Source: Eimeria necatrix (lineage: Eukaryota; Apicomplexa; Conoidasida; Eucoccidiorida; Eimeriidae). Taken from it: a stretch of 14,719 nt of DNA. Below the pieces are notes generated by a model. The model was not told the DNA's origin, did no database searches, and saw only the letters and a list, made by a program, of their open reading frames with translations. This document shows positions 1-14,719 of the stretch, piece after piece. Position 1 is the first letter of the stretch. Every line of letters begins with the position of its first letter. The DNA lies in assembly GCF_000499385.1 (NCBI RefSeq), contig NW_013651791.1:1-14719 (forward strand), read 5' to 3'. The translations under genes and the position numbers were made by a program.

Positions 1-3000
1 ATCGAGGCTTGCTTCTCCAAGGCCGTTCTCTTCTGTGCACTGAGGGGCATGCGGCGGCTCGCTCTGTTGCCTACAATCACGCACAACGAGTACACGCAAC
101 AGTGCATTCGTCACACCGTCATGTCAGTTGCACGATGCGCCACAACACCGACGTTTTTACGTGGGCCCCTTTATGCAATGCACTCGAGTTTCGCGGAGCT
201 ATTGTGACGCGTGCCATCCGGAAAATGAACCGATGTTGAACGGAGTATGCGCAACTTTTGCAAGGTGTCTGCAAGAGGTTTAGGGCGTCGCAGAGTGGGG
301 GAATATGTTTTATTCATTTGCCGCACGTTTTTTAGGTTTGCGTGCAGGTCGTTGGTAAGTTTGTTGAGCAGCACGTGTGCCTCCTTTGCCTTGCACTAGA
401 TGTTGGAGTGCCGCCAGCTACATGCCTGTTTATGGTCACTACATTACTTGTCTGTTGGTCGCTTCGCTCTCAAGCGTGCACATATACAATAGAGAATGTC
501 GAGTAAAGCAAAAGGGAAGGGAAGGAAAGGCGCCCTGGAACATGGCAATGTGGAAAGATGTGCGGGCGGCAGCATTTGCAAGACTGCAAGTGGGTGGGCG
601 GAAGCGTGGCTTAGAATATGTTAGGGCAACGTCGTGATGGCACAGGATCCTGTAGAGCTTTTTGCGATTTTGTGAGGCGTGGAAAGTGGACTCGGAGACT
701 GGCTACATTGCGGCTTTGTGATGTTTGCCTCTATCAACGTTATTTCTTTCTGTGGTTTAACATATAACTGCGTCTTTGTGCTTTTAGTGAACGTTTGAGC
801 AGTGAGTGTGGATCGCCCTTGAAGCTGGAACGGTGCAGATGTTCTGTAGTATATGGGTGGGTGGGTCGCTGTGGTGTGTGATGTCAATGCTTATAGAGGG
901 GAAACGCAGATGTATTTGCACAAGGGTGCACAGTACGTCGTTGTTCCGGAATGTGCATTCGCTGCAGACATTTATTGCGTGAGTTTATGGCACATCAGTG
1001 GAAGCTGGCAGATGCACCTTGCGTAGGTTTGTTTCGCTTTGTTGTAGAGTGCGATTGCCTAGAGAAAAAGGCGTAAGATTAAAATTTCATATTTTGTGGA
1101 CATGATGAACGAGGAGACGCATTATTCGCAGAAAGCACTGCAATGAGTAATTTCTTGCATTACCGCTTCATCAAGGCATTTTTGGCTACATTGTGTGAGT
1201 ATATGATTTTCCATGCACTGACTGTGCCCAATGTTCTCGTTAGTCAAGATGCATTTCGTTTCGAACTCTCACAGGCTCCTCAGGCGTTGCTAGCGTCCGG
1301 CTCAGGAACATTGTAGGTGCCGTAGTTCTCGTTATAGTGTTTGATCATTCGGACAAGGGCGAGGCTTCGCCATGCTGCATTACAGGTGAATTGTCATATA
1401 CGATGTTCACTATAGCTGAATACCTATCACCATTTGCACGAACCACGTTAACATGATAATCACGATACTTCAACCCCAAAGAATGGTTGTGCAGTGGATA
1501 GTCTGTGACGAATTCTATGAAGAAGCTCGCTGAGGTGGGTACTACTGGTGCGTATCGACAATTGTGTAGTGGCTCACGCCATCCTGATTCAGGACGTGCT
1601 TTAGCGAAAGAGTTATCAAGGGGATGTTCAAGGAATATGTTCTTAACTTTACAAGCTGCATCTTGGATATCTGAAACACCGTTGGCATGCTTTGTTTTTC
1701 TCAACACACAGGTAGTGGCTCTAGAGAAACTAACCTCAAGGGCACCTGACACAAGTGATGTTGCATATGAGATAATGTGGCTTCTTGTATAATTAAAAGA
1801 CATTCCGGACTCCAAAAAATCAGCGGGTTGTTCTTCTGGGTCATGCGAACTAGATCACCCGCACATTTTGTGTTTAAGCATCCACCTCATTGCGTCTGTC
1901 TCAGGGTGTCCAATTCCTTACGATTCTGAACGGTCATTAGGGCTATATGGCTCTTGTAAATATTTACTGCGCACATGTTCAGCTTCTCCAAAATTTAGAG
2001 CCGTTATGCCATCAGGAGGCCACGCACACACGTGTCGGATATTTCTTTGTATATTCTGTTTTCAGCAGAATGAAACAAGAGATATACGCAACAAATGTGG
2101 TGCATATTTGTTGTCGGGCTTTGCTGCTACTTTTCAGCAGTGGACACAGTTGTGCGCAACCAAATAAGTCACCTCATTGCGTTTGCCGTTCTTTGCTAGT
2201 CATACAGCTTTCTGCATTTGACCACGTTGCCTGTAGATCCGTGTTTTGTCTCTTCCTGCAGTTTCTGCAGACGAGAAGGCAATTTTAGTCATCATACCCG
2301 TCAGATCGTCAGTTTCAAGGATGCAAGACAGAGCTGTTCTACTTGCGGCACACAATGCTTGCGCGCTATGCATATGAACGAAACGTGGCGTGATATGACA
2401 AGCACCATGGGATTTATTTTGCTCGACAAAACTTTGGTATTTCTATTCTGTCCTTCTTCGGTTTTTATTAAAAGCGTTTCTGAGATTTATTGCTAATTAG
2501 ACTACCGGCTCATCTTGCGTCCATGCTGCCCGTATGTGCAGGTTGTAATCAAGCCTTTTTGCAGCTTCTTCATGTAGACGACGTTAGGTGGAGCAGACGT
2601 CTTTGATGCAGCCACAATGTGAGGAAACGGCGTAAGGCGCCTCCATATGGTTAATGAGGACTCCCCAATTTGGGGCGCACATAGCATGGGTGTTTGTTCT
2701 GCATTGTTTGTATTTCACTTGTCTGTCGCGAAAACGGATTCGCCCGAATTCACTTTGCTGCTCAGCCGCTATAACGGTGCTTTCGCCTTTGCTTTCGTTG
2801 GTACCTCTGCAGATGTACGGTAATTTTTGGCATGATGCCTAAATTAGCGCAGAGGAATTGCTTACCTGTGTGTACACGATTAGAAAATATGATCGGGTTG
2901 GACTTTCTAACTTTTTCATTTATGTCGAGTGTAGGCTGTACATAGTAAATTGTGTGAATTCCTAGCTCTTACGATTTGGATGGTCTGCAGGTCGTGCAAA

Positions 3001-4516
3001 CACTTTCCGGTGGACAAAGGCCATGGCGTAGCCAGGTGCTGGTCAAGTCCCATGTATTCTCGCAGTGAGTCATACGTCCAACATTCCTTTGAATACCTTA
3101 GTCGCCATGTGACTCTTGTAGGTGTTTCAGAGGAGCCAACGTATTTGCGAAAAGAGGACAATTTTCGTAGAATTCATGACATTATCCTTATACAGCACAT
3201 TTGGAGCCTGGCCAAATCAGCTTTTTCTGACTGTGAAGTATTGTGGCCATGCGTTGCAACAAGCACGGAAATACAGAGCCATACAAAAAGCTTCACTGCT
3301 TTTCCCTGCAAGCTCAAAGACTAGTTGAAAATGGGGGTCGACCGAAAACGTTGAACTCATTTTGGATAGGATCCTCTCAATTACCTCACGTGCCTCAGGC
3401 CTGGCATGTATCTTTGCACGATTCCTACTCGGCTTTAAAGCAGTCAGCAGTTTGTGGGGGGGCGACAGCCTTGATGCGAGAGCACTCGCATTGTAAGCAT
3501 GCTGTGTGGCGTATGTGCAGCATTACTAGCAGGGAGACGAAAGTGCTGAACGTCTTGCGCTTACACGCTATCGACGCACTGTTGAGGGCTCGTCCCATTT
3601 CCTCAACATTACTGCGTAGCGAGCAATTGCATTATATAACCAAAACAACCTGAACAACGTTGGGAGCAATGCTAGGTGAATAAACGAGAATTGGGGGGCT
3701 AAATAAATTATCCCGGGGGTTTACAGTCATATTCGTGCTCCTGAGCATATCAAGAGGGATTCAGGCTGAATTTACGTCCTTCAGGGCGGCATGCAAAAGT
3801 CATTTGAACAACACTGTCAGGGAATCAGTATTGGAGCCGTATGTTCTCTAAATTCTCCCGGTGGAGTTGGAGCATGAAGAGTTCAGCCATTGGGTGCCCA
3901 AACGCTTGAGAGACCTGATTACCTGCTCGACGGTCTTTGCGTCTGTCTGCCAGGTGTGTCTTAGTGGGTCGAATGCTCCAAAATGTCTCTTCGCACTGCA
4001 TTTCTCACTCTGGTTCGTTTGATGGAGGGAGCCTACCTGAAATTCGCTGAATTCTCGCGGGTCAGTGAACGCTTGCAATTGTGAGTTTCGAAGGGAAAAT
4101 TCAAAAACGATGGCCACTAGTCCATGAATATACTCGATGCACGCCACCCATAGTCGACGCCAGGCGCTTTGATGAATTATGGACACAACGAACCTATATC
4201 GACAAGTAGGTGTGCATGGTGAGATGGCTGATCAGGGGTGGATTAAGCGGCACTGGGACTTTCATTCCACAGGAATTAAAGTTTTTGTACCAGGTTTGAG
4301 GCATCAAAAGTGTTGCTTGTTGCTTGCGTGAGATTTGTGGGCAATGGAAGGAGCAAGTAGTCTTCGCGACAGTTTCTTGGCTAGCGAGTCGAAGCCTAGT
4401 CATTGCGGCGTGAGGCCTAGTTTAAGGTTCGTGCTGCTGACGTATCTGCTAAGAAGTGAGTTCGGTTGCACATCGTCTAATGACATACTTTTCTGGCATA
4501 TATGTGTGGTTTGCAG
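1..4516. other. 5' flank: no recognised gene
   Basis: This stretch is T/G-rich on the + strand. Open frames occur on both strands, the largest being 1345-1815 on the - strand (156 codons), 3243-3653 on + (136 codons), 2950-3324 on + (124 codons) and 3848-4186 on - (112 codons). None shows a motif, signal peptide or family resemblance that I recognise, and several overlap other open frames on the opposite strand. A search of every GTRNG donor on the + strand found only one good acceptor-3-nt-donor site here (CAC at 372-374), compared with 22 in the next 8.8 kb. It may be upstream intron, 5' untranslated region or intergenic DNA. No promoter could be called. Confidence 0.5.
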
Positions 4517-4519
4517 CGA
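4517..4519 (+). other. Microexon 1, CGA (Arg), entry to the collagen-like run
   Basis: Acceptor CAG at 4514-4516 follows a T/G-rich stretch. Donor GTACGT is at 4520-4525. The intron to the first glycine is 359 nt, much shorter than the 488-668 nt introns that normally separate a Y codon from the next glycine. It may therefore be the last codon of a non-collagenous upstream part rather than the Y residue of an earlier triplet. No matching G and X microexons were found upstream. Confidence 0.6.
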
Positions 4520-7500
4520 GTACGTGTTTCCAGTATTGATCAAATGCACGCAGAGTGGGGCGAACAGTTGGGGAACTGACTTGCCATTTTGGCCTGTACC
4601 CAAACTCTGGCTTATGCAGCTTCACAAAGGCATTTAGAATCGACGTAGGCTAAACGCCGGTGTGCGGCAGTGAAGACAAATGTCGTTGTTGCCATTCGGA
4701 TGTCGTGAGCAAGCGTTAGTCCGCCACCTCTTCGCAAAAATAGACGAGCAGCTTTTTGAACGTCACTGGGACACTTTGACAAACTTGCGTACCTCCTCTT
4801 TGTTTTGAAAGTATCTTTTGCAGTCTTCGTGCTCCTAGTAGCACATAGTTTCTCGCCTAGAAAATAATGGATTGCCAGGGAGTAAGCATCATCGGCGAAA
4901 GAGTTGTGTAAATTATTCAATTCTCTCGGAGCGATGAACGCTTTTAACTTTTAGCGGCAAAAGTGGTTTGGATACTTCATAAAGCATGGCAATAAAATTG
5001 TCTAGCAAGCAAAGTGTTCCTTGCTGTTTTTTTGTTTTGTCGTTTTAAACTAATTGATGTTATTAGAGATTTCCCGCAGCTGTCTAGCTCAAGACGAGAC
5101 CTCTCAATAACGAGTGCGTTCGGTGAATGTGCTAAAAGTTGCGCAGCGGCTTTGCTGTGTCCGCGTTATTTCCTTTCATTGGCCCGTCCTTTTGCCGCTC
5201 GAGGAAGCTGCGCAAGAACATAAGCATGCATCTGCAGCCTGTATGTCCTCGATGTGCACCAAATCACAGTACTTTTCGGGATCACATTGAAGATCACAAG
5301 CATCAATTAATTTCTTCGCAACGTGCTCTTGTGAACTATTTCTTGAGCAAAGCCGTGCAACAATGCGCTTCTCGACAGGCGTTGTTGTGTCCACATTCGC
5401 AGTCATCAATCTCACTTGCAGGTGAGATCTCGTGGTCTTCGGTTTGTAACGTTATAGCTGAGGCTCAGCTTGAGAGTCTTTTAGCTGATATGTTCGACTA
5501 ATGCCATTTTTCGGTAAAATGCAACGGATTGATTCCAAACGCGTATGTGCTCATGAAATATGTTTTCTGTTTGGCATTCAGCCAGTAAGTAAATCACAGG
5601 CTTGTTTATAATGTACAAGGCGTGCTACGAGATGTGCAGAAACAATCACGCTATTTTGAGTCCAGCATATGCTTTGTATAATATACGAGAAGCCTAAGGA
5701 AGTGAAGGAATAAAGATGAAGCTTCTGTGTTCTAGAAAAAGTGCTCCTAAGGTTTCCTTGCTTGTGCCGTTTGCTAGCGTGTTTGTGTCACTTGGTTATG
5801 CACATAGTTGGCCTACCTGTGCCCGAGTGCTGGCATCTTTGTGCTGTTTCATGAAGATGCGATAAATGTTCTGCAGAGACGGCGTTTTGTCTACGTGCCT
5901 AGATAATATTCAGTAGGGAGCCGCCATGGACAGTGGGTGCCTGACGTTTTGTTTGCAGGTCGCATGCTGCAACGCAAGATCTCTCGCGTGAGGAATCTCG
6001 CTAACCCACTCGCGCCTCTCCTTGCAAACCATTTACTGGACCCCAATGCTTGATGGGAAAAGTGATGTATAGCAGAATGTGATTTTTTCGCAATGCTTGT
6101 ACAGAGACTTGTGCTGTCTTGGTTATAGGAGTGCAACTCATATGTTTGTCCTGATTGGCTACAGGGAGTACGCTTCTGCGGCTTGTCGTTTCACGCGAAG
6201 CGCTTAGCTTTCAACGAATCATAGATGCCTGAAATCCTTGGTCACCAAACTGACCGAGCAATTCACAACGCATGAAACGGCCCTTGTCGTTTCTGGCTTG
6301 TACCGTGACCTATGTAGGCCTGTGCGTTTCAAGAGCGGATGCCTCGTGAAGAGTTATTTTTGCTGTTTGATATACTTCTTTATCTAATTTATGTTGCGTC
6401 AATGTTTGAAATTTTTCGAAGCATTCCCTCTGGGTAAAGAGATGTCAGTGTTCAAGAGCTTAGAAATAGCACATTAAAGGAAGGTTGTCAGTAAGTGGGG
6501 TGGCGCTACATTCCAGTTGAAGTATATTTTTAACAAAATCTGGTTCGGCTGATTCGCTGCACTGTGCATAAGTGTGGCTACAAAAAAGGGGAGCGGCGTT
6601 TTTGTAGCCTGTAAGCCGTTAGGTGTGTCGACCTCTGCAACATTCACGCTAATTGTCCGCGCTACTCTCGATTTGACGTCGCATGTTTGCTATTGGTCCC
6701 ATGGTGGTCGCTGTAATTTACCAGCCAACCAGCTATTGTGCGGGCTTTAGATGTTTACATGCCTTTGTTGCGCCAAGGACGTAAGTTCACACATATTTAG
6801 TTGACTAGCAGCGCTTAAAATCGTTCAAAAGGTATGTTGGGATTTTTGCAAGCGTCCATACGTCGCGTGCTTTTGCGCGTAGGCCGAATACGCCAGGCAA
6901 GGCATCTTATCCGTATGCTTTATTCCTGCTGCTATATTTTCTGTTTGAGAGTATTGTGCTTTCTTCAGTAGGACGCCCCAGAGAACAGTGTTGTAGGAAT
7001 GACACAGGCTAGTCAAGTTCTTCATGACGGCAGTTGGTCTTGTCACCATCGTACTCCCCAGGCAGCAGCCAGCATGATCAGTTTGTGACAAAGTGCTCTC
7101 GTTCACGATGTCGCGAGATCTGTGAAGTGGTAGAGCCCGAAACTTTACTTGTGCGCAATATAGTTGGACTTTGGCATTCCCGGAAGATGCTGCTGCCACT
7201 GCAGTCATAATGGTGAACAAATAACGTGGCGTCGCTCGGTCTGTGCCCTTTTGTGTAATGGTTTTACAATGCCTGTAGCCGGTGTCTCGTTGGGGTAACA
7301 CTGTAGATGCTTGCTTTGGAGAGACCAATACTATTTTAGGGAGTAAGCCCTATCGATAGCCAGCTTGCGTGCGTTGTAAAACTCTTGCATAGTTATGAAG
7401 ACTAACAGCTTTCGGCTGCTGCAGCGTCATTCAACATGTGGGCTGCCGCTTGTGACTTACAACAGAGACTAGTGTCTTTCACGCCTTGTGTTTTGCACAA

Positions 7501-10500
7501 ATAGCTGGGTGACGAAATTAATTGTTGCTGCTGCTTGTTTTGCTTTCGGACTATTTCTGCATGTGGTGAATCCTAAGTATGTGCCCTAATTGTCGGGCTC
7601 ATGTTTAGAGAGGTAGTCTGTGTCTGTGTAGATTTAGTCGACTTTTGGGAGACTGCTGGTCGATAATGTATTTGTGGGGAACTGAATCCTGCATGTGATG
7701 GCCACATTGAACCCACCAAGCGCTGCACTGCAATGTAGAACGGAGAGCACTCAGAATTTCGAATTGCAGCCTGTAAGCATTTGTAGTTCGATGAATTCTA
7801 AAAACGATAATGCGGACGAGCGTCGCTAGACGCTTCAAGCCTTAGGTGTTTATCTTCCAATGCCCTCATTCTGTAACTGCCACATCGGTAATTCCGCCTT
7901 TAGCGTCACTGTTTGTGCTGCCTGTGTCCATGAAGCGAGGCAGAGTCATGCGGAGAAATCTGCGTGGGATTAGCCAGTATGGGGATGCATACTATATGTA
8001 ATATAGGAATCATGGTGCAAAGAGTAAGAGATCTTATGTGTTCATTTGGTCGGAAGTTTGTTTCGGGCAGCACAAAGAATGTCAATACAGGCACGAAAAG
8101 TCCTAAAACTGCATGTGCGTTCGACCCTAGCTAGTGTTGTAGCCGTTCCAATGTCGTGCGCGGATGTATGTGAGTCACGTGCGTGTTCAAAAAGGTGTCC
8201 ATAGGGCCTTTGGCGCTTTGTGTGCTATTCGTGAGTATGCCTTTAGTGTGGTAAATGCATGCTGCAGCAGGAAGCACCGCTGCGCAATCTACCAGGAATA
8301 ATGGAAAGGGCAGTGAAACCTTTGGTAGACAGTTAATGATTTGTCTATGCATCGTTCGACAGGAAGCTACTCTTTCAGCTTTCATTCATATGATTTTTAT
8401 TTGCATTATGCTCAAGGATGTTTTAATGCTGAAAGTGACGATGTTCCACGTGAACGATCTGGCTGTCAGCTTGCACCTCGGCATACATAAGCGATAGTTG
8501 GAAGCAGTGTTGACATTTTGTTTAGCCGCTAACGCGCCTTCTCACTCTGCATAGAGGTGTCCGTAATGCGTTGGCAGGGAAGCTTACTTTTTGCATGCCG
8601 TACACATATCCAGTTTGCTTGCTCTAAAATTAGTGAATTGTCAGGGAGTAGGTGTTTGTGTGTTGTCAGTTTCTTCACTTCGTCGCATTTATACGCTCTT
8701 GTCAATATTTCCGGTTCTTTACCACACAGATATATTGGACTTTTGAAGGGCTGCCTTATGAGCTTTGTAGCGTTTTGCAATGCGTCCTAGTGGACGCACA
8801 GTTTGCACAAGCATATGCGTGACGAAGTGTTTCATGCCCCTCTGATGTGTTTTCCAATTGCGTTGGCACAGGTTCTCTTTGGGCGTTGCTGAAATCCATG
8901 TGGGCGGCAATATGTTACTAGCTGCGTTGGGCAATCTTCCAAAGCTTTTTCAAAGAATGATGATCTATAACTGCGTTAGTCTCAGATTGCTGCCTAGGCG
9001 TGCTGCTCGCACTGTCAGCAAAAGTCTATCTCCTGAAATGCGGGGGGAAGCTTCCACAAGACGAGTTCGCAGGTTGTATGTTTTGAGTGCAACAGAACGC
9101 AGTGCACTTTGGCTAAGAAAGATGACAGGACTTCTTGGACGGTCTCCACCCGAAATCAGTTATGAGTCCCAACAAGCGCGAAACTGTACTGAGAATCCGA
9201 GGAGAGATATGCTTGCTGTTTCTCGTTCCTACACACTGACCTACCGAAACCAAATTTATCATATGAAATCACTGCGGCCGTGAGCTATAGGGGTTGTCTT
9301 CCCCTCATCCTGGAAAAACATATTGCTTGGCGAATGAAAGTTTGTTTATCACAACAATTTAGCTGACCGCCACTCCTAGACACTGTCGAGTGCGGCGTGC
9401 GTCCAGCGATGGCCCTGCTGATGTAGGTGCAAAGATGTGATCGCAAGAACACATGCGCTGATTAGTGTTGATAACGTATTTGTGCTGCCCACAGGACGTA
9501 TGCTCATGCATATTCAGTCAAAGTTGCAAGCTGCGCTTCAAAGAACTGGGAGGCTAGCGTTTCGTTTTCGTGGAACTTTTCTTTTGACTAAAATGATGAA
9601 GGTTTGCTGGTGCATAGCAGGATCATAAGCATGATGCCTTTACCAGCGGAGCTGTGAGAGCAAACTTGCCAACATTGCGTGCAAACCTGCGTACGCCACA
9701 TACTTGTGCAGACAAAATGACTGTTTAGGTTGTCGGATACGTCTCGACATGTTATTGTTCCACGCCCTCCGCAGAAGGCATCACAGCGCATTCTTACAAG
9801 AACAGCCGCCGTCAGCTCCCTTCATGGATCTGTGGTGGCCTTGACGCTGGCTTTGTACTCGAGCAGGCGCCTGCACGTGTGAATTCGCATAAAAGAAGTG
9901 ATTCATATGTGCGACGTTTCACTGTACATTCAGGCTCCAAGCTAGCTTCTCGCCTTCTTACGATATGATCTGGATCTGCCATATCCGAAGAAACACCAAA
10001 GTAACAATAAGGTCCGGAAAAATTCTGCAAACACCTTGTGACAAAGTCCAAGATGGCTTCCAGTGCTTGCGCATGATAAAAAAGTTTTAGAAAGGCACTA
10101 GCAGCTTTACCGCTGAGAACGTATTACAGTTGCAGTTCTTGGAAGCGGTGATATATCAGGGCGTAGGTGTCTCTGCGTCTGGCCAACTTGCACATATTCT
10201 TGATTTTGCACCGAAAAATGAAGGTTTTTATTTTCAGATTCCAGTACCGCTGAGGAAGGGAAACAGTTAAGCCTGCAAAACTGCCTTTTCGCAGCCGGTA
10301 TGAATTCAGAGGTCTCCTGATGAAGTTCATTTGGGGGTTGAGAACAAGCAAATTAATCACGTAATCAAAGGCTGCTTGCCCCTGTTGCAAACGGTTATTC
10401 CAGTATGCGAATTCTATAACTGTATGTCGAGAAGTCCAGTAATATGTATGGTTGTTGATTTGGCAGCTCGCATTTTTACCGAGAGTGATGTACCTGAGCA

Positions 10501-13353
10501 CCTAAAATTACTGCGGGCCCCTCTTAGAGACGAGGGATTGTTTTGTCTCGTCGTGGTGAGGTGCTACGATAGCATGCATGGTTTTCCAGTGTATCTTCAT
10601 TTTGTTGCTGTATTTAATTTACGCCAACAATTCGGTTGCTGGCATGCATGCTAAAACATAATCAAAAACACATGAGCCCGTTGAAACCATTCCAAGATGC
10701 CTTTGTGGTTTACAGCCGGTATGTGTTAACAGCTTTGCTATAATATACTGTGGCGCAGAAAGTTGTGGAATTGATCTGCTTCGTACGGTCAATGAGGGGG
10801 GACCATCAAAAGCGTTTACGTATGCAAAAGGTATTTTGGCGTTTTGTGCATCCTTGACGGTAATTTTGGAGGCGGCATTACAAGTGATGCGCGGGAAGGT
10901 CCTTGTGTCAAGCTTTTGTGAAGCTCCGGCAAAATTGTGACAAACGTATTTTGTACTTCGTCTGTGTAAAGGTTTCGTGTTTCATTGGTGCCGTTTTATT
11001 TGGTACTGTCGCGCAAAACAAGCATTCGACCAGCGTATGTGTCATGTTGTTCAACGTCGCCAGCACGAAGCGGGAAGGCTTTTTGTCTGGAATGTGCTAC
11101 ATAAGGCTTTCTGTTCAAAGGTGAAGCCATGCACTTATACGATGTGCACAGTTCGTGACACACCTTCCTCCACAAAAAAACTGGAGCCAAACCTTTGAAC
11201 AACTGGCAGAATGTATTGCGGTGTTTTCGTTTTTGCATTATGTCTTCACCGCAGCTTTAGTCAATTTCGCGTGGGGAATCCAAGTCTTGTGGTTGCTTTC
11301 AAAATAATAAATGCCATTAAAAACTAACTTTCAGGGAGTATGTTCCGTTTGGCGACAGCTGTTTGAGAATTTCTTGTCTTCTCACTTGCCCCGGGGGCAT
11401 GAGATCCGCTGCTACACTAGCTCCGTAAGGGCAAACCTAAACGCAGGGGGCCATTTGTGGCCCTCTCAGTGGCTTTTATCTGAGTTATACGGCGACAGTG
11501 TAAAAGCAGAGGCTGCCAGAATGCTTCTTGCTGGAATCATACGTGTACCCTCCCCGCTTTTGAAAACAAAAGTTCCAAACGTGTTTCAGTCGTGTGCTCA
11601 GGTTGTGCCAAAGCTTTTGACGGCTTGAGCACCGTCTTGAAGCGAGAAGGTTGGACGTCTAGTTGCAAATGGGGCACTTTACAGCATTCATCAGCATCTT
11701 CCGCCATTTGCTCTGTAAGGAGAAATTGAAATTTGAATAGTGTCTTGTTGCAGCCCGTAAGTGTTCAAAATGCTCCGCAAATCAGTACTGCTTGGGCTGC
11801 GAATGGGGGACGCAAGACCTTGCAAGAGGCCAAGGCATTCCTGCATCGCGTTTCTTGCGTATTGCCTAGTAAGCATCCATACTGAAACGCTGAATAGGCA
11901 TATATAAGCCGATATGAAGGCTCATATGTTGGTCGGGCTCAGCACAATCGTTATTACTGTAGCCATGGAAGCCTGCGACTGGGTTTGTGACGCTTTTAAC
12001 AGTGTTGCTGAGTATTGACCGTCTGCTGGCGCATTCGAATTGCTTGCATTTTCGCCCTACGGAGGTTCAACCAGTCCAGTACTGGAGAGGCGTTTCGGCA
12101 TATCTGCAGCCAGTATGTGGACACAAGCGCCATCTAATTCTAAAGTCAAGGTGCGAAGTCTTGAGAAGTCTACCCCCAATTAATAGTCGAGCAAACGTTT
12201 TGACCTGCAGAAGAGAGGTGTAAAACGATCAAGTACACTGTGCATGGGAAAACGACTAGCTTTCTGGCATCCTCAGCGTCACCGCGTTCAACCGTGTGTC
12301 TTTCACACGTTTGTGAACTCAACCAAGAAGTGCCTGATGATATGCTTGCTAGCTATTTTAGCTGTTGCACTGCGGTCTTCATAGGATGCTGCAGAAGAGG
12401 TCTTTGCAGGACACAGCGTATCCATGCTTCACCCATTTGGACGCCTGAGTATAGGGTCCACATCATGATTTTTTTCGGAGCAAGGTGCAAGTGATTGCCC
12501 GCTGCAAACATGAACTTGGAGTGTGCGTTATGCTAGTAATCTGGCATGTAACCTAATACGAAGAATCAGGTCGGTAGCTTAAGATGCAACAATTTGCTAG
12601 GGAGTGAGCGCAGCTGAGCGTTCCCATGAGGACGTGCATTTATTGGCGCCCATAAAACATCCGGAGCTATGAATAATGTCGTGCTTAGTTTGTGAGAATT
12701 GTGTCCTAGTCTGATCCGTGCGCTGCACACGGCTTGTTGAGAGTATATCTTTTCGTTTTTGATGCGATTCCTGATTCAATTTATGCTTACGTTACGGCAA
12801 CTGTTTCACCGAAGCATTATTTGATCCTTTTTGAGGCTCTATAGAGATCCCGCGGAGGGATAGTCAGTGGGTGACGTATCTTGTTTGCGGATAAATCGTG
12901 GATGTGACGTTTTACCGGCTTAGCAGGAGCAGCTACGCTGCAATGTTACGAAGACTGCGATAATTCGAATATGTCTTTTCGCAGGTAGTAGGCGTTTGCA
13001 GGCCGCACAACGTCTAGGAATGTTTCCGATAGAGACGAAGGCAATACGAATGTACAAGCTGCAGAATGGTCTTTTTCACTGCATTTTTTCTGCGTAACTA
13101 CTGCGAGCACTATTTGCGCGCTGCCCTTGTTTTTTGTAATATTGGCAATATGTTCTTTTCGTTATGGTGAGAAATTATGTTATGTTACCAATGTTGCGGT
13201 GCGCATGACGGTTTTGTTGTGGTTCCTTTGACTGACAAGGCAATATATGTTACTGCTCTTGCTTATCACATGTGTTGCTGACATGCAAAGCGGCAATCAT
13301 GAGCACCCATGCTCTGGCGAGAAATGCTGAATTTTCCACTTGGAGTACAGCCA
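4517..13353 (+). CDS. Collagen-like Gly-X-Y segment built from 22 single-codon (3-nt) exons, partial
   Basis: Seen directly: 22 sites where an acceptor AG (21 YAG, one AAG) is followed by three bases and then a donor matching GTRNG. Exon starts are 4517, 4879, 5238, 5582, 6165, 6608, 6778, 7340, 7770, 7974, 8645, 9073, 9495, 10160, 10295, 10716, 11335, 11754, 12110, 12601, 12985 and 13351. The codons in order give Arg, then triplets GPP, GPD, GPP, GVD, and then GPP, GPP, GVP. All introns are phase 0. Known: Gly at every third residue, with Pro frequent at X and Y, is the signature of the collagen triple helix, usually extracellular or secretory. Inferred: the spliced product is a short triple-helical segment of a larger protein whose ends are not identified here. 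Codon choice is mostly GGA for Gly. No signal peptide, propeptide or NC domain can be assigned. Expression is unproven. The main alternative is a recurring non-splicing motif, but that would not explain the codon register. Confidence 0.77.
4879..5584 (+). other. Triplet unit 1: Gly-Pro-Pro on three microexons
   Basis: Microexons are GGA 4879-4881 (CAG before, GTAAGC after), CCT 5238-5240 (CAG, GTATGT) and CCA 5582-5584 (CAG, GTAAGT). Internal introns are 356 and 341 nt, and the intron to the next glycine is 580 nt. All six splice sites are canonical in type. A further CAG directly abutting GTGAGA lies inside the second internal intron at 5419-5427. Confidence 0.75.
6165..6780 (+). other. Triplet unit 2: Gly-Pro-Asp on three microexons
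   Basis: Microexons are GGA 6165-6167 (CAG before, GTACGC after), CCT 6608-6610 (TAG after a T-run, GTAAGC) and GAC 6778-6780 (AAG acceptor, GTAAGT). Introns are 440 and 167 nt, then 559 nt to the next glycine. The GAC exon is the only one with an AAG acceptor. Its donor is a perfect GTAAGT and the preceding bases are pyrimidine-rich, so I accept it with less confidence. The competing site is CCG at 7279-7281, whose donor GTGTCT is poor. Confidence 0.66.
7340..7976 (+). other. Triplet unit 3: Gly-Pro-Pro on three microexons
   Basis: Microexons are GGA 7340-7342 (TAG after four T, GTAAGC), CCT 7770-7772 (CAG, GTAAGC) and CCA 7974-7976 (TAG, GTATGG). Introns are 427 and 201 nt, then 668 nt to the next glycine. 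The CCA donor lacks the pyrimidine at position 6, so that exon is slightly weaker than its neighbours. Confidence 0.72.
8645..9497 (+). other. Triplet unit 4: Gly-Val-Asp on three microexons
   Basis: Microexons are GGA 8645-8647 (CAG, GTAGGT), GTT 9073-9075 (CAG, GTATGT) and GAC 9495-9497 (CAG after a pyrimidine-rich stretch, GTATGC). Introns are 425 and 419 nt, then 662 nt to the next glycine. This unit has no proline, but its glycine keeps strict register. Confidence 0.72.
10160..10718 (+). other. Triplet unit 5: Gly-Pro-Pro on three microexons
   Basis: Microexons are GGC 10160-10162 (CAG, GTAGGT), CCG 10295-10297 (CAG after a CTTTTC tract, GTATGA) and CCG 10716-10718 (CAG, GTATGT). Introns are 132 nt, the shortest in the series, and 418 nt, then 616 nt to the next glycine. 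This is the only unit using GGC and CCG codons. The middle donor GTATGA lacks the usual pyrimidine at position 6. Confidence 0.72.
11335..12112 (+). other. Triplet unit 6: Gly-Pro-Pro on three microexons
   Basis: Microexons are GGA 11335-11337 (CAG, GTATGT; a CTAAC branch-point-like string lies just upstream), CCC 11754-11756 (CAG, GTAAGT) and CCA 12110-12112 (CAG, GTATGT). Introns are 416 and 353 nt, then 488 nt to the next glycine. If the donor at 11338 is not used, the frame stays open to a TGA at 11626-11628, giving a possible alternative end. Confidence 0.74.
12601..13353 (+). other. Triplet unit 7: Gly-Val-Pro on three microexons
   Basis: Microexons are GGA 12601-12603 (TAG, GTGAGC, the only donor with G at position 3), GTA 12985-12987 (CAG after a CTTTTC tract, GTAGGC) and CCA 13351-13353 (CAG, GTACGT). 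Introns are 381 and 363 nt. For GTA there is an ambiguity: CAG abuts GTAGTA directly, so a zero-length site is formally possible. Only the 3-nt reading keeps the next codons in register and gives the better donor. No further glycine microexon is visible downstream in the window. Confidence 0.7.
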
Positions 13354-14719
13354 GTACGTAAATACAGACTTGGCCTCATATACGCGAAGTGAGACGAGTT
13401 GTGATATTTTGGATGAAAATGAGCCAAAAGATTCTGCGGATGCACAGTTACAAAAGTAAGACCTGACTTTGAAGAAGGCAGCATTTTGGCTAGGTTTGCC
13501 GCTGTCGCCTTCCAGTGAACGCATGCGGGGAGTGCGGGGACAAGCCGAGTTAGTTAGTAGATATTATAGTCGACTAAGTGGTTGTATTTGTGCCATCCTG
13601 ATCGATATTGGAGTCCAATGTATGTATAGAATGAATCAGAAAGCGGAACATAGAATACAATATTTGAGCAATGATAAGTAGATTGCTGGCACCGTCCAAA
13701 GATGGGTAGCATCTTTTGCAGTCAGATGCTACTGAAGCTAGTGTATAGAGGGGCAGTTTATATCACACAGTTGCAGATTACTGCTACGCGTTACACTTAC
13801 TCTGACTGGAAGCCTCCACAGCGCCCGATACTGCTAAATCTGGCATATCATCGCTCACGAGAAAGGGCAGCTTTTGGGAATCACCTGCAACACTTGCAAG
13901 CCATCGCGCTCTTCAGCGCGACTTTCAAAGTAGCTCCGGTCGCCTTGTTGGTCTGACCAATTTGCACGGGCTCGCTCCAGGAACAGTGAAATCACGGGAA
14001 AGCCTTGCAATCTTCTTTTTCGCGCAAATCATATCGGCTCTGTATGAGTGCTGCGGCGAACGTTGTATATAGTACGATAAGCAGTTTTCGGAATATTCTA
14101 GTGGTGTTCGCAGAGCGACAACTTGAACTATCAGTTTTGAAGCTTTGGCATTGTCTGCAAATACACGAAGTTCACGTGGGTACGTATACGCAAAAGGGCT
14201 AGCCAAAGTCAACCTGTGCAATGCATCTACGGCTGTATATGGTGTCCCACGTGGATGTACAGTTGTGCAGTGCAACTGTAATGCCCATAGTTCGAAACAT
14301 GAAGCCCTTTTAGGCAAGCCTGACAACTTCACGCATCTCGAAACCCGTATGAGAAAAATGCGAATGTGGCCGTTACTTCAAAGCGCGCGACACGACAATG
14401 TATGGTCACTAAGCACGACATTTTATACACCATGGCTAGGACGCTGCCAACATTTTTGCATGAGATGAAACTGATCGGCAAGAAAAACGCCTACAACCGG
14501 AAAATGCGTAGAATCGCGCATGTACCATATGGCGTACGCTAAGGAATGTTCGCAGAAACTTAGAATGCTGCTTTTCTGCCGTATATGGGAGGCTTTTTTT
14601 TTGAGGCCACATTCCACACAGTTGCGCATGAAGCGAGTCAGACTGTTGTCTTTCACTTGTGTCGATAGTTTGGCCGACATAAAACTTCAGGGAAAATTGC
14701 ACTGAGCTTAGAGATTCCT
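13354..14719. other. 3' flank: no recognised gene
   Basis: Begins with the donor of the last microexon. No further single-codon exon with GTRNG donor is visible. Open frames are 13702-13956 (+, 84 codons), 13925-14332 (-, 135 codons), 14145-14468 (+, 107 codons) and two overlapping - strand frames near 14430-14700. None is recognisable. It could be a long intron leading to further exons outside the window, or 3' untranslated and intergenic sequence. Confidence 0.45.
13722..13748 (+). other. Weak candidate terminal exon
   Basis: After the last microexon donor (13354-13359), the best-looking acceptor is CAG at 13719-13721, preceded by a T-rich tract. Continuing in phase 0 gives eight codons (Ser, Asp, Ala, Thr, Glu, Ala, Ser, Val) and then TAG at 13746-13748. 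The implied intron is 368 nt, within the usual range. The acceptor and phase were chosen by eye. Any random frame soon reaches a stop, so the end of the coding sequence is not established. Confidence 0.2.

Follow-up and report, generated by a model that had tools for sequence, protein, structure and literature searches.

The contig of Eimeria necatrix analyzed here carries 21 successive three-base units, each bounded by AG and GT, which are likely spliced one codon per exon and would then encode part of a collagen triple helix. The window is the entire contig C272 (14,719 bases), and the genome searched comprises 44.0 Mb in 1,148 contigs. E. necatrix is a coccidian whose host is the chicken. 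From comparisons within its genome we conclude that it has a class of genes with runs of predicted single-codon exons, that this class includes a collagen family, and that these genes are likely spliced stepwise. The reading of the three-base units as collagen codons is well supported by their evolution within the genome.

The architecture is that of a putative micro-exon gene, with three-base sites following one another at distances of 135-671 bases. Five related copies of the window (C365, C213, C1064, C948 and C472; ~75-91% identity over aligned blocks, with C1064 and C948 read as reverse complements) allow the same slots to be compared. Together with the window they provide 102 slot cells, 34 each for Gly, X and Y; C365 covers 9 slots and C472 covers 10, and at 6778 an aligned cell is missing from C948. 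The predicted exons, and two further candidates upstream, are as follows.

4879-4881, plus strand: predicted single-codon exon GGA (Gly), triplet 1; GGA in 5/5 copies
5238-5240, plus strand: predicted single-codon exon CCT (Pro), X of triplet 1; Pro in 4/5 copies, Leu in C365
5582-5584, plus strand: predicted single-codon exon CCA (Pro), Y of triplet 1; Pro in 4/5 copies, Arg in C948
6165-6167, plus strand: predicted single-codon exon GGA (Gly), triplet 2; GGA in 5/5 copies
6608-6610, plus strand: predicted single-codon exon CCT (Pro), X of triplet 2; Pro 3/5, Leu 1/5, Ser 1/5
6778-6780, plus strand: predicted single-codon exon GAC (Asp), Y of triplet 2; Asp 3/4, Ala 1/4
7340-7342, plus strand: predicted single-codon exon GGA (Gly), triplet 3; GGA in 5/5 copies
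7770-7772, plus strand: predicted single-codon exon CCT (Pro), X of triplet 3; Pro 3/5, Leu 2/5
7974-7976, plus strand: predicted single-codon exon CCA (Pro), Y of triplet 3; CCA in 5/5 copies; score 8.3
8645-8647, plus strand: predicted single-codon exon GGA (Gly), triplet 4; GGA in 4/4 copies
9073-9075, plus strand: predicted single-codon exon GTT (Val), X of triplet 4; Val, Leu, Asp and Ala in 4 copies
9495-9497, plus strand: predicted single-codon exon GAC (Asp), Y of triplet 4; Asp 3/5, Glu 1/5, Asn 1/5
10160-10162, plus strand: predicted single-codon exon GGC (Gly), triplet 5; GGC in 5/5 copies
10295-10297, plus strand: predicted single-codon exon CCG (Pro), X of triplet 5; Pro 3/5, Leu 2/5
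10716-10718, plus strand: predicted single-codon exon CCG (Pro), Y of triplet 5; Pro in 5/5 copies (CCG or CCA)
11335-11337, plus strand: predicted single-codon exon GGA (Gly), triplet 6; GGA in 5/5 copies
11754-11756, plus strand: predicted single-codon exon CCC (Pro), X of triplet 6; Pro 4/5, Gly 1/5
12110-12112, plus strand: predicted single-codon exon CCA (Pro), Y of triplet 6; Pro 4/5, Gln 1/5
12601-12603, plus strand: predicted single-codon exon GGA (Gly), triplet 7; GGA in 5/5 copies
12985-12987, plus strand: predicted single-codon exon GTA (Val), X of triplet 7; Val 2/5, and Met, His and Pro 1/5 each
13351-13353, plus strand: predicted single-codon exon CCA (Pro), Y of triplet 7; Pro 4/5, Thr 1/5
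4517-4519, plus strand: possible single-codon exon CGA (Arg) in a Y-like place before triplet 1, uncertain
3451-3453, plus strand: possible single-codon exon TTT (Phe); TTT in 4/4 copies; score 10.4 with the outside matrix

Joined in order, the 21 codons read GPP GPD GPP GVD GPP GPP GVP, seven Gly-X-Y triplets without a slip. The original prediction had given the same codons at the same positions, with six GGA and one GGC (at 10160) at every third site, P P P V P P V at X and P D P D P P P at Y, and all of this was recovered. Proline occupies 5/7 X and 5/7 Y positions in the window, the proline-rich composition of collagen. The prediction had also called three sites weak. When scored with matrices built outside the window, 6778 (acceptor AAG, score 8.2, the lowest of the 21) and 7974 are indeed the weakest, but 10295 is not weak (11.0). 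The claim that CGA at 4517 is the first microexon is now less sure: the slot holds Arg in C272 and C948 and Pro in C365, and its AG is lost in C213. The flank of this site weakly resembles that of the Y exon at 10716.

One could imagine that the sites fitting Gly-X-Y were simply picked from among many AG-NNN-GT sites that arose by chance. There are 47 loose (C/T)AG-N3-GT(A/G) sites on the plus strand of the window, and three of the chosen sites had looked weak at first reading. Because sites should not be chosen by codon, acceptor and donor matrices were trained on other contigs, namely on 44 motif matches from C920, C873, C924, C717 and C1057, the first three of which are distant relatives of the window. 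All AG...GT pairs enclosing 1-30 bases and kept in every covering copy (at least three) were then scanned over window positions 2771-14719. This unsupervised scan returned 22 candidates of length 3 above a score of 8, which are the 21 sites plus TTT at 3451, while every other length from 1 to 30 gave 0-4 candidates. Within the interval 4879-13351 it recovered the 21 sites and no further three-base site above threshold. Selective picking is therefore barely credible as a source of the pattern, all the more since predictions made for other contigs (C873, C924 and C1040, below) held. No length other than 3 stands out from 1 to 30, so the scan found no sign of longer exons in the array.

Simple motif counts point the same way. 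CAG-N(k)-GTA occurs 21 times at k=3 on the plus strand of the window, versus 1-8 times at every other k from 0 to 12, and the minus strand has 4 matches at k=3 and no peak. These 21 matches overlap with the 21 array sites but differ from them, and the equal count is a coincidence; several array sites carry TAG, AAG or GTG instead of CAG or GTA. The probability of Gly at every third site, which the original prediction had proposed to compute, is ~4e-9 given base composition and any of three phases. Plain conservation was also tried as a guide to exons and was of no help, as 18-base conservation peaks are not confined to the sites.

The pattern of change among copies is what would be expected of collagen codons. 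Relative to the commonest codon at each slot, Gly differs in 0/34 cells, third base included, X in 15/34 (14 non-synonymous) and Y in 8/34 (6 non-synonymous); the difference between Gly and X is significant (Fisher P 8e-6). The AG and GT of the 21 sites are kept in all covering copies. X changes are frequently CCN to CTN, or Pro to Leu, and C365 has Leu at 3/3 covered X slots. We also compared the codons with intron triplets, whose mean pairwise identity is 0.87. X codons have an identity of 0.63 (P 1e-5, 7 intron triplets resampled 200,000 times), falling to 0.44 at their second bases, while Y codons at 0.83 behave like introns (P 0.23). The invariance of all seven Gly codons taken alone reaches only P 0.0016 against introns. 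The original prediction had named as its refutation an orthologous locus whose spacers change without respect for Gly-X-Y; in these paralogues the spacers do vary, yet respect it, with none of the 34 Gly cells changed. We are least sure of what drives the excess of change at X. Diversifying pressure on X residues between copies is one interpretation, drawn from copies that are few and related, and mutation bias or gene conversion among copies may be alternative sources.

Could the array instead be a relic, the sites of a once-spliced collagen gene whose product has been lost? Some features lean that way: C213 has lost the AG at 4517, C948 lacks one slot, X and Y codons change freely, and the register breaks downstream. 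Against this, copies that have diverged by 10-25% keep AG, GT and 34/34 Gly codons intact, and stops are found in 0/102 cells versus 4.8 expected at random. Copies more distant still (67-68% identity) keep the Gly-X-Y order at the slots seen. A decayed family is thus improbable, and we favor single-codon exons that are still in use.

The distant copies also provide a prospective test. The window has a single short stretch in common with C920 (165 window bases, 68%), yet the minus strand of C920 has three-base sites reading P G P P G P P, with an extra TAT four bases after a CCA. From its coordinates, slots in C873 and C924 were placed before their sequences were read. The predicted slots hold G, P, P and G in C873 (68% identity to C920) and L, P and G in C924 (67% identity to C920); in C924, AGC and TAT also match the loose motif outside the predicted slots. 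C1040 was chosen by the Gly motif alone, which recurs there at 14,644 and 15,758. Between the two, and with a scoring matrix that included window sites, the sites above a score of 8 are GAA (AAG acceptor, 8.6) and CCA (13.0), giving G-E-P-G; TTC (7.5) follows, another candidate, which lies close to the weaker Y site. Together with the paralogue pattern, these slots support the original prediction that the three-base spacers are collagen codons.

Homology searches with the joined peptide are consistent with this identity. Against Pfam, the 21 residues match Collagen (PF01391, a profile of 60 positions) with E 0.0026, but at 17.9 bits the match falls under the cut-off of 27.2. Against the PDB, type II collagen is found with E 7e-4. 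Conventional collagen exons elsewhere in the genome were considered and set aside: PF01391 has at least 116 genome matches among the 150 of 418 candidates scored, and many of these stretches match in several frames and on both strands, like low-complexity repeats. Ordinary genes in the window were likewise rejected, as 10 of the 103 listed ORFs were compared with Pfam and none had a match over the cut-off; two of the ten had sub-threshold matches with E near 0.08.

An AG closely followed by a GT is also the look of a ratchet point. The three-base sites might then be ratchet points of recursive splicing (a process named in PMC4674806) or intron decoys, whose bases are not kept as codons. Acceptor and donor almost touch in both and introns would be removed stepwise in both, with a gap here of 3 instead of 0. 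However, ratchet points leave no bases behind, while here three are predicted to stay. A ratchet has no need of a fixed length of 3, of Gly in every third place (~4e-9), or of conserved GGA beside varying X. In addition, zero-base sites are not raised in the contigs of this family (2, versus 116 at length 3). We consider this explanation very improbable, and return to codons retained in the mRNA.

How might such exons be spliced? We propose that the introns would be recognized by intron definition and removed one after another. The upstream exon would grow by three bases per step, and the next donor would lie three bases past the new junction; under such stepwise removal, no three-base exon needs to be defined alone. 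The distances of 135-671 bases between sites fit intron definition. By comparison, exons in Eimeria tend to be large: E. tenella genes are described as having 6.3 exons with a mean of 350 bases and introns of 298 (PMC8515493), and the median intron of E. falciformis is given as 183 (PMC4287421).

The same arrangement offers a route for array growth. Because each exon would be exactly one codon in phase 0, duplication or recombination within the introns could add triplets or swap X and Y codons, leaving the frame and the glycine register intact. Y-to-G distances have a mean of 599 bases versus 349 for the rest (P 1e-5), which suggests that arrays grew by whole triplet units. Weak same-slot likeness agrees with this (4505-4584 with 10704-10779, and 5563-5636 with 13332-13403; E 2e-4 each), and a search for internal repeats in the window found nothing beyond it. 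We hypothesize, and here we are least sure, that the product could be a collagen-like protein, secreted or at the surface, with its X residues pressed to differ between copies.

Motif counts across the whole genome indicate that the feature extends well beyond the window. The Gly motif YYNCAGGGAGTAWG (CAG-GGA-GTAWG) has 55 matches on 40 contigs, versus 1 when reversed, and the same motif with CCW for GGA has 55 versus 3. A control with GAG for GGA gives 21 versus 5 reversed, so it is raised too. Gly and Pro motifs occur together on one strand of a contig 15 times, and on opposite strands of a contig once; without the nine contigs already read or compared, they occur together on one strand 7 times, in a test that assumes contigs of equal length. 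GGA and GAG motifs share contig and strand 3 times (P 0.004). Length again matters: YYGCAG-N3-GTAAGT is found 49 times (9 reversed) versus 12 for N4 (17 reversed), and among the 100 of 120 matches listed for TTGCAG-N(0-18)-GTAAGT, 17 are of length 3, while the other lengths have a mean of 4.6 and a maximum of 7. The Gly motif detects 5/34 known Gly cells, and by this rough extrapolation the genome may hold a few hundred triplets. Across 25 partly overlapping loci chosen for matches to actin or to the collagen profile, length 3 shows no excess (18, with 5 to 25 at lengths 0-30); the feature is therefore specific to particular genes. A locus on a contig of >250 kb, C200:240819-253383, has three Gly motifs, and gene ends and ordinary neighbors might lie there.

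Some arrays spell something other than collagen. On the minus strand of C1057, K L A L I I F G A F I Y I T L Y is spelled by the sites above 8 from 3467 to 9072, and a single TGA candidate follows a better site at a distance of 35 bases. The stretch spelled there (C1057:4087-13650, minus strand) is hydrophobic and resembles a membrane helix. C717 (21501-25000, plus strand) has sites above 7 reading Q E E K I R W E R E, a charged sequence; length 3 stands out on the plus strand only, a TAG overlaps the last site, and a search of the genome for paralogues of this array found none. With 40 contigs carrying the strict Gly motif and two non-collagen arrays, the finding extends beyond what was first claimed for a single contig. 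We give about even chances to a broader hypothesis, in which Eimeria has a class of genes where exon equals codon. This class would comprise several hundred or more such exons in collagen and other genes, spliced stepwise, with intron recombination editing single residues; its collagens would keep the glycine register as X outpaces neutral DNA.

The closest known kind of gene is the schistosome micro-exon gene (MEG), likened here by architecture only. As described in PMC10526429, the MEGs of Schistosoma mansoni are chains of short exons, mostly multiples of three, separated by long introns; they are multi-copy genes of a parasite and hard for automatic annotation, as are the genes here. MEG exons are mostly 15 bp with a minimum of 6 bp (3-81 bp according to the abstract) and number 10-20 per gene (PMC10526429). 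Unlike MEGs, the array described here has 21 successive units of exactly 3 bases that spell collagen, and the organisms are unrelated. Isolated ultra-short exons of 1-15 bases are retained in mRNA according to the reports cited here, so very small exons can be spliced: examples are a 3-bp micro-exon in Drosophila homothorax (PMC7392893), a 1-base exon in Arabidopsis APC11 (PMC4674806), and plant microexons more widely (PMC8831610). As reported there, those are single exons between ordinary ones, whereas here they would form unbroken runs.

Animal collagens grew by triplet-preserving units, and the exons of animal fibrillar collagens hold whole triplets, 54 bp. The predicted protein shares with collagen (PF01391) perfect Gly-X-Y and proline-rich X and Y, if only a weak profile match, but unlike an animal fibrillar collagen gene it would have a unit of its own for each residue. 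Reads that span several three-base exons are unlikely to be placed by RNA aligners, and genes of this type could have gone unseen for that reason. At the level of the search results listed, our literature search returned no report of microexons or of an own collagen for Eimeria or other Apicomplexa, and none of runs of single-codon exons.

If these predictions hold, single-codon exons by themselves are enough for a spliceosome to build a stretch of protein, with consequences for exon definition, for how small an exon can be, and for the reasons why introns persist. The usual gene finders and RNA aligners would miss genes of this type, and a protein family of a poultry parasite may have been overlooked. 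In an apicomplexan, it would be a multi-copy collagen family whose copies diverge more at X residues than in their introns.

The Gly-X-Y pattern is uninterrupted for seven triplets, and the register is not continuous past triplet 7. Downstream, C948, C472, C213 and C1064 share five conserved three-base candidates with scores of at least 7.5, none of them Gly, reading T/S/L/S, P, H/E/K/N/D, F/Q/Y/Y and A/P/T/A. A search of C948 and C472 for AG-GGN-GT or AG-GGN-GC found no conserved Gly before C948 18121; GGA reappears far downstream in both, and C472 reads G L P up to its end. Either the collagen stretch is interrupted or exons were missed by the scan. Upstream sites read G and K in C365 and in C593, and G K P in C299. 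The window and the copies scanned yielded no first or last exon and no gene start or end, and neither a trimerization domain nor a signal peptide was found.

Several structural details accompany the arrays. Two conserved six-base candidates lie at window 13614 and at C472 5685, the latter absent from C948. The TTT at 3451-3453 lies ~1.4 kb upstream of the array, with its AG and GT kept in 4/4 copies. Alignments to C365, C213 and C948 break at window 2771, where C365 and C948 have ~660 extra bases. Window 1-742 is repeated in C365 as two copies and an inverted piece, and parts of it recur in C299 and C593, adjoining the G K P or G K sites. In C1064, the downstream part of the array contains an internal tandem duplication of >1 kb. 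In C948, two GGA sites spaced by 243 bases are identical and share the same flank.
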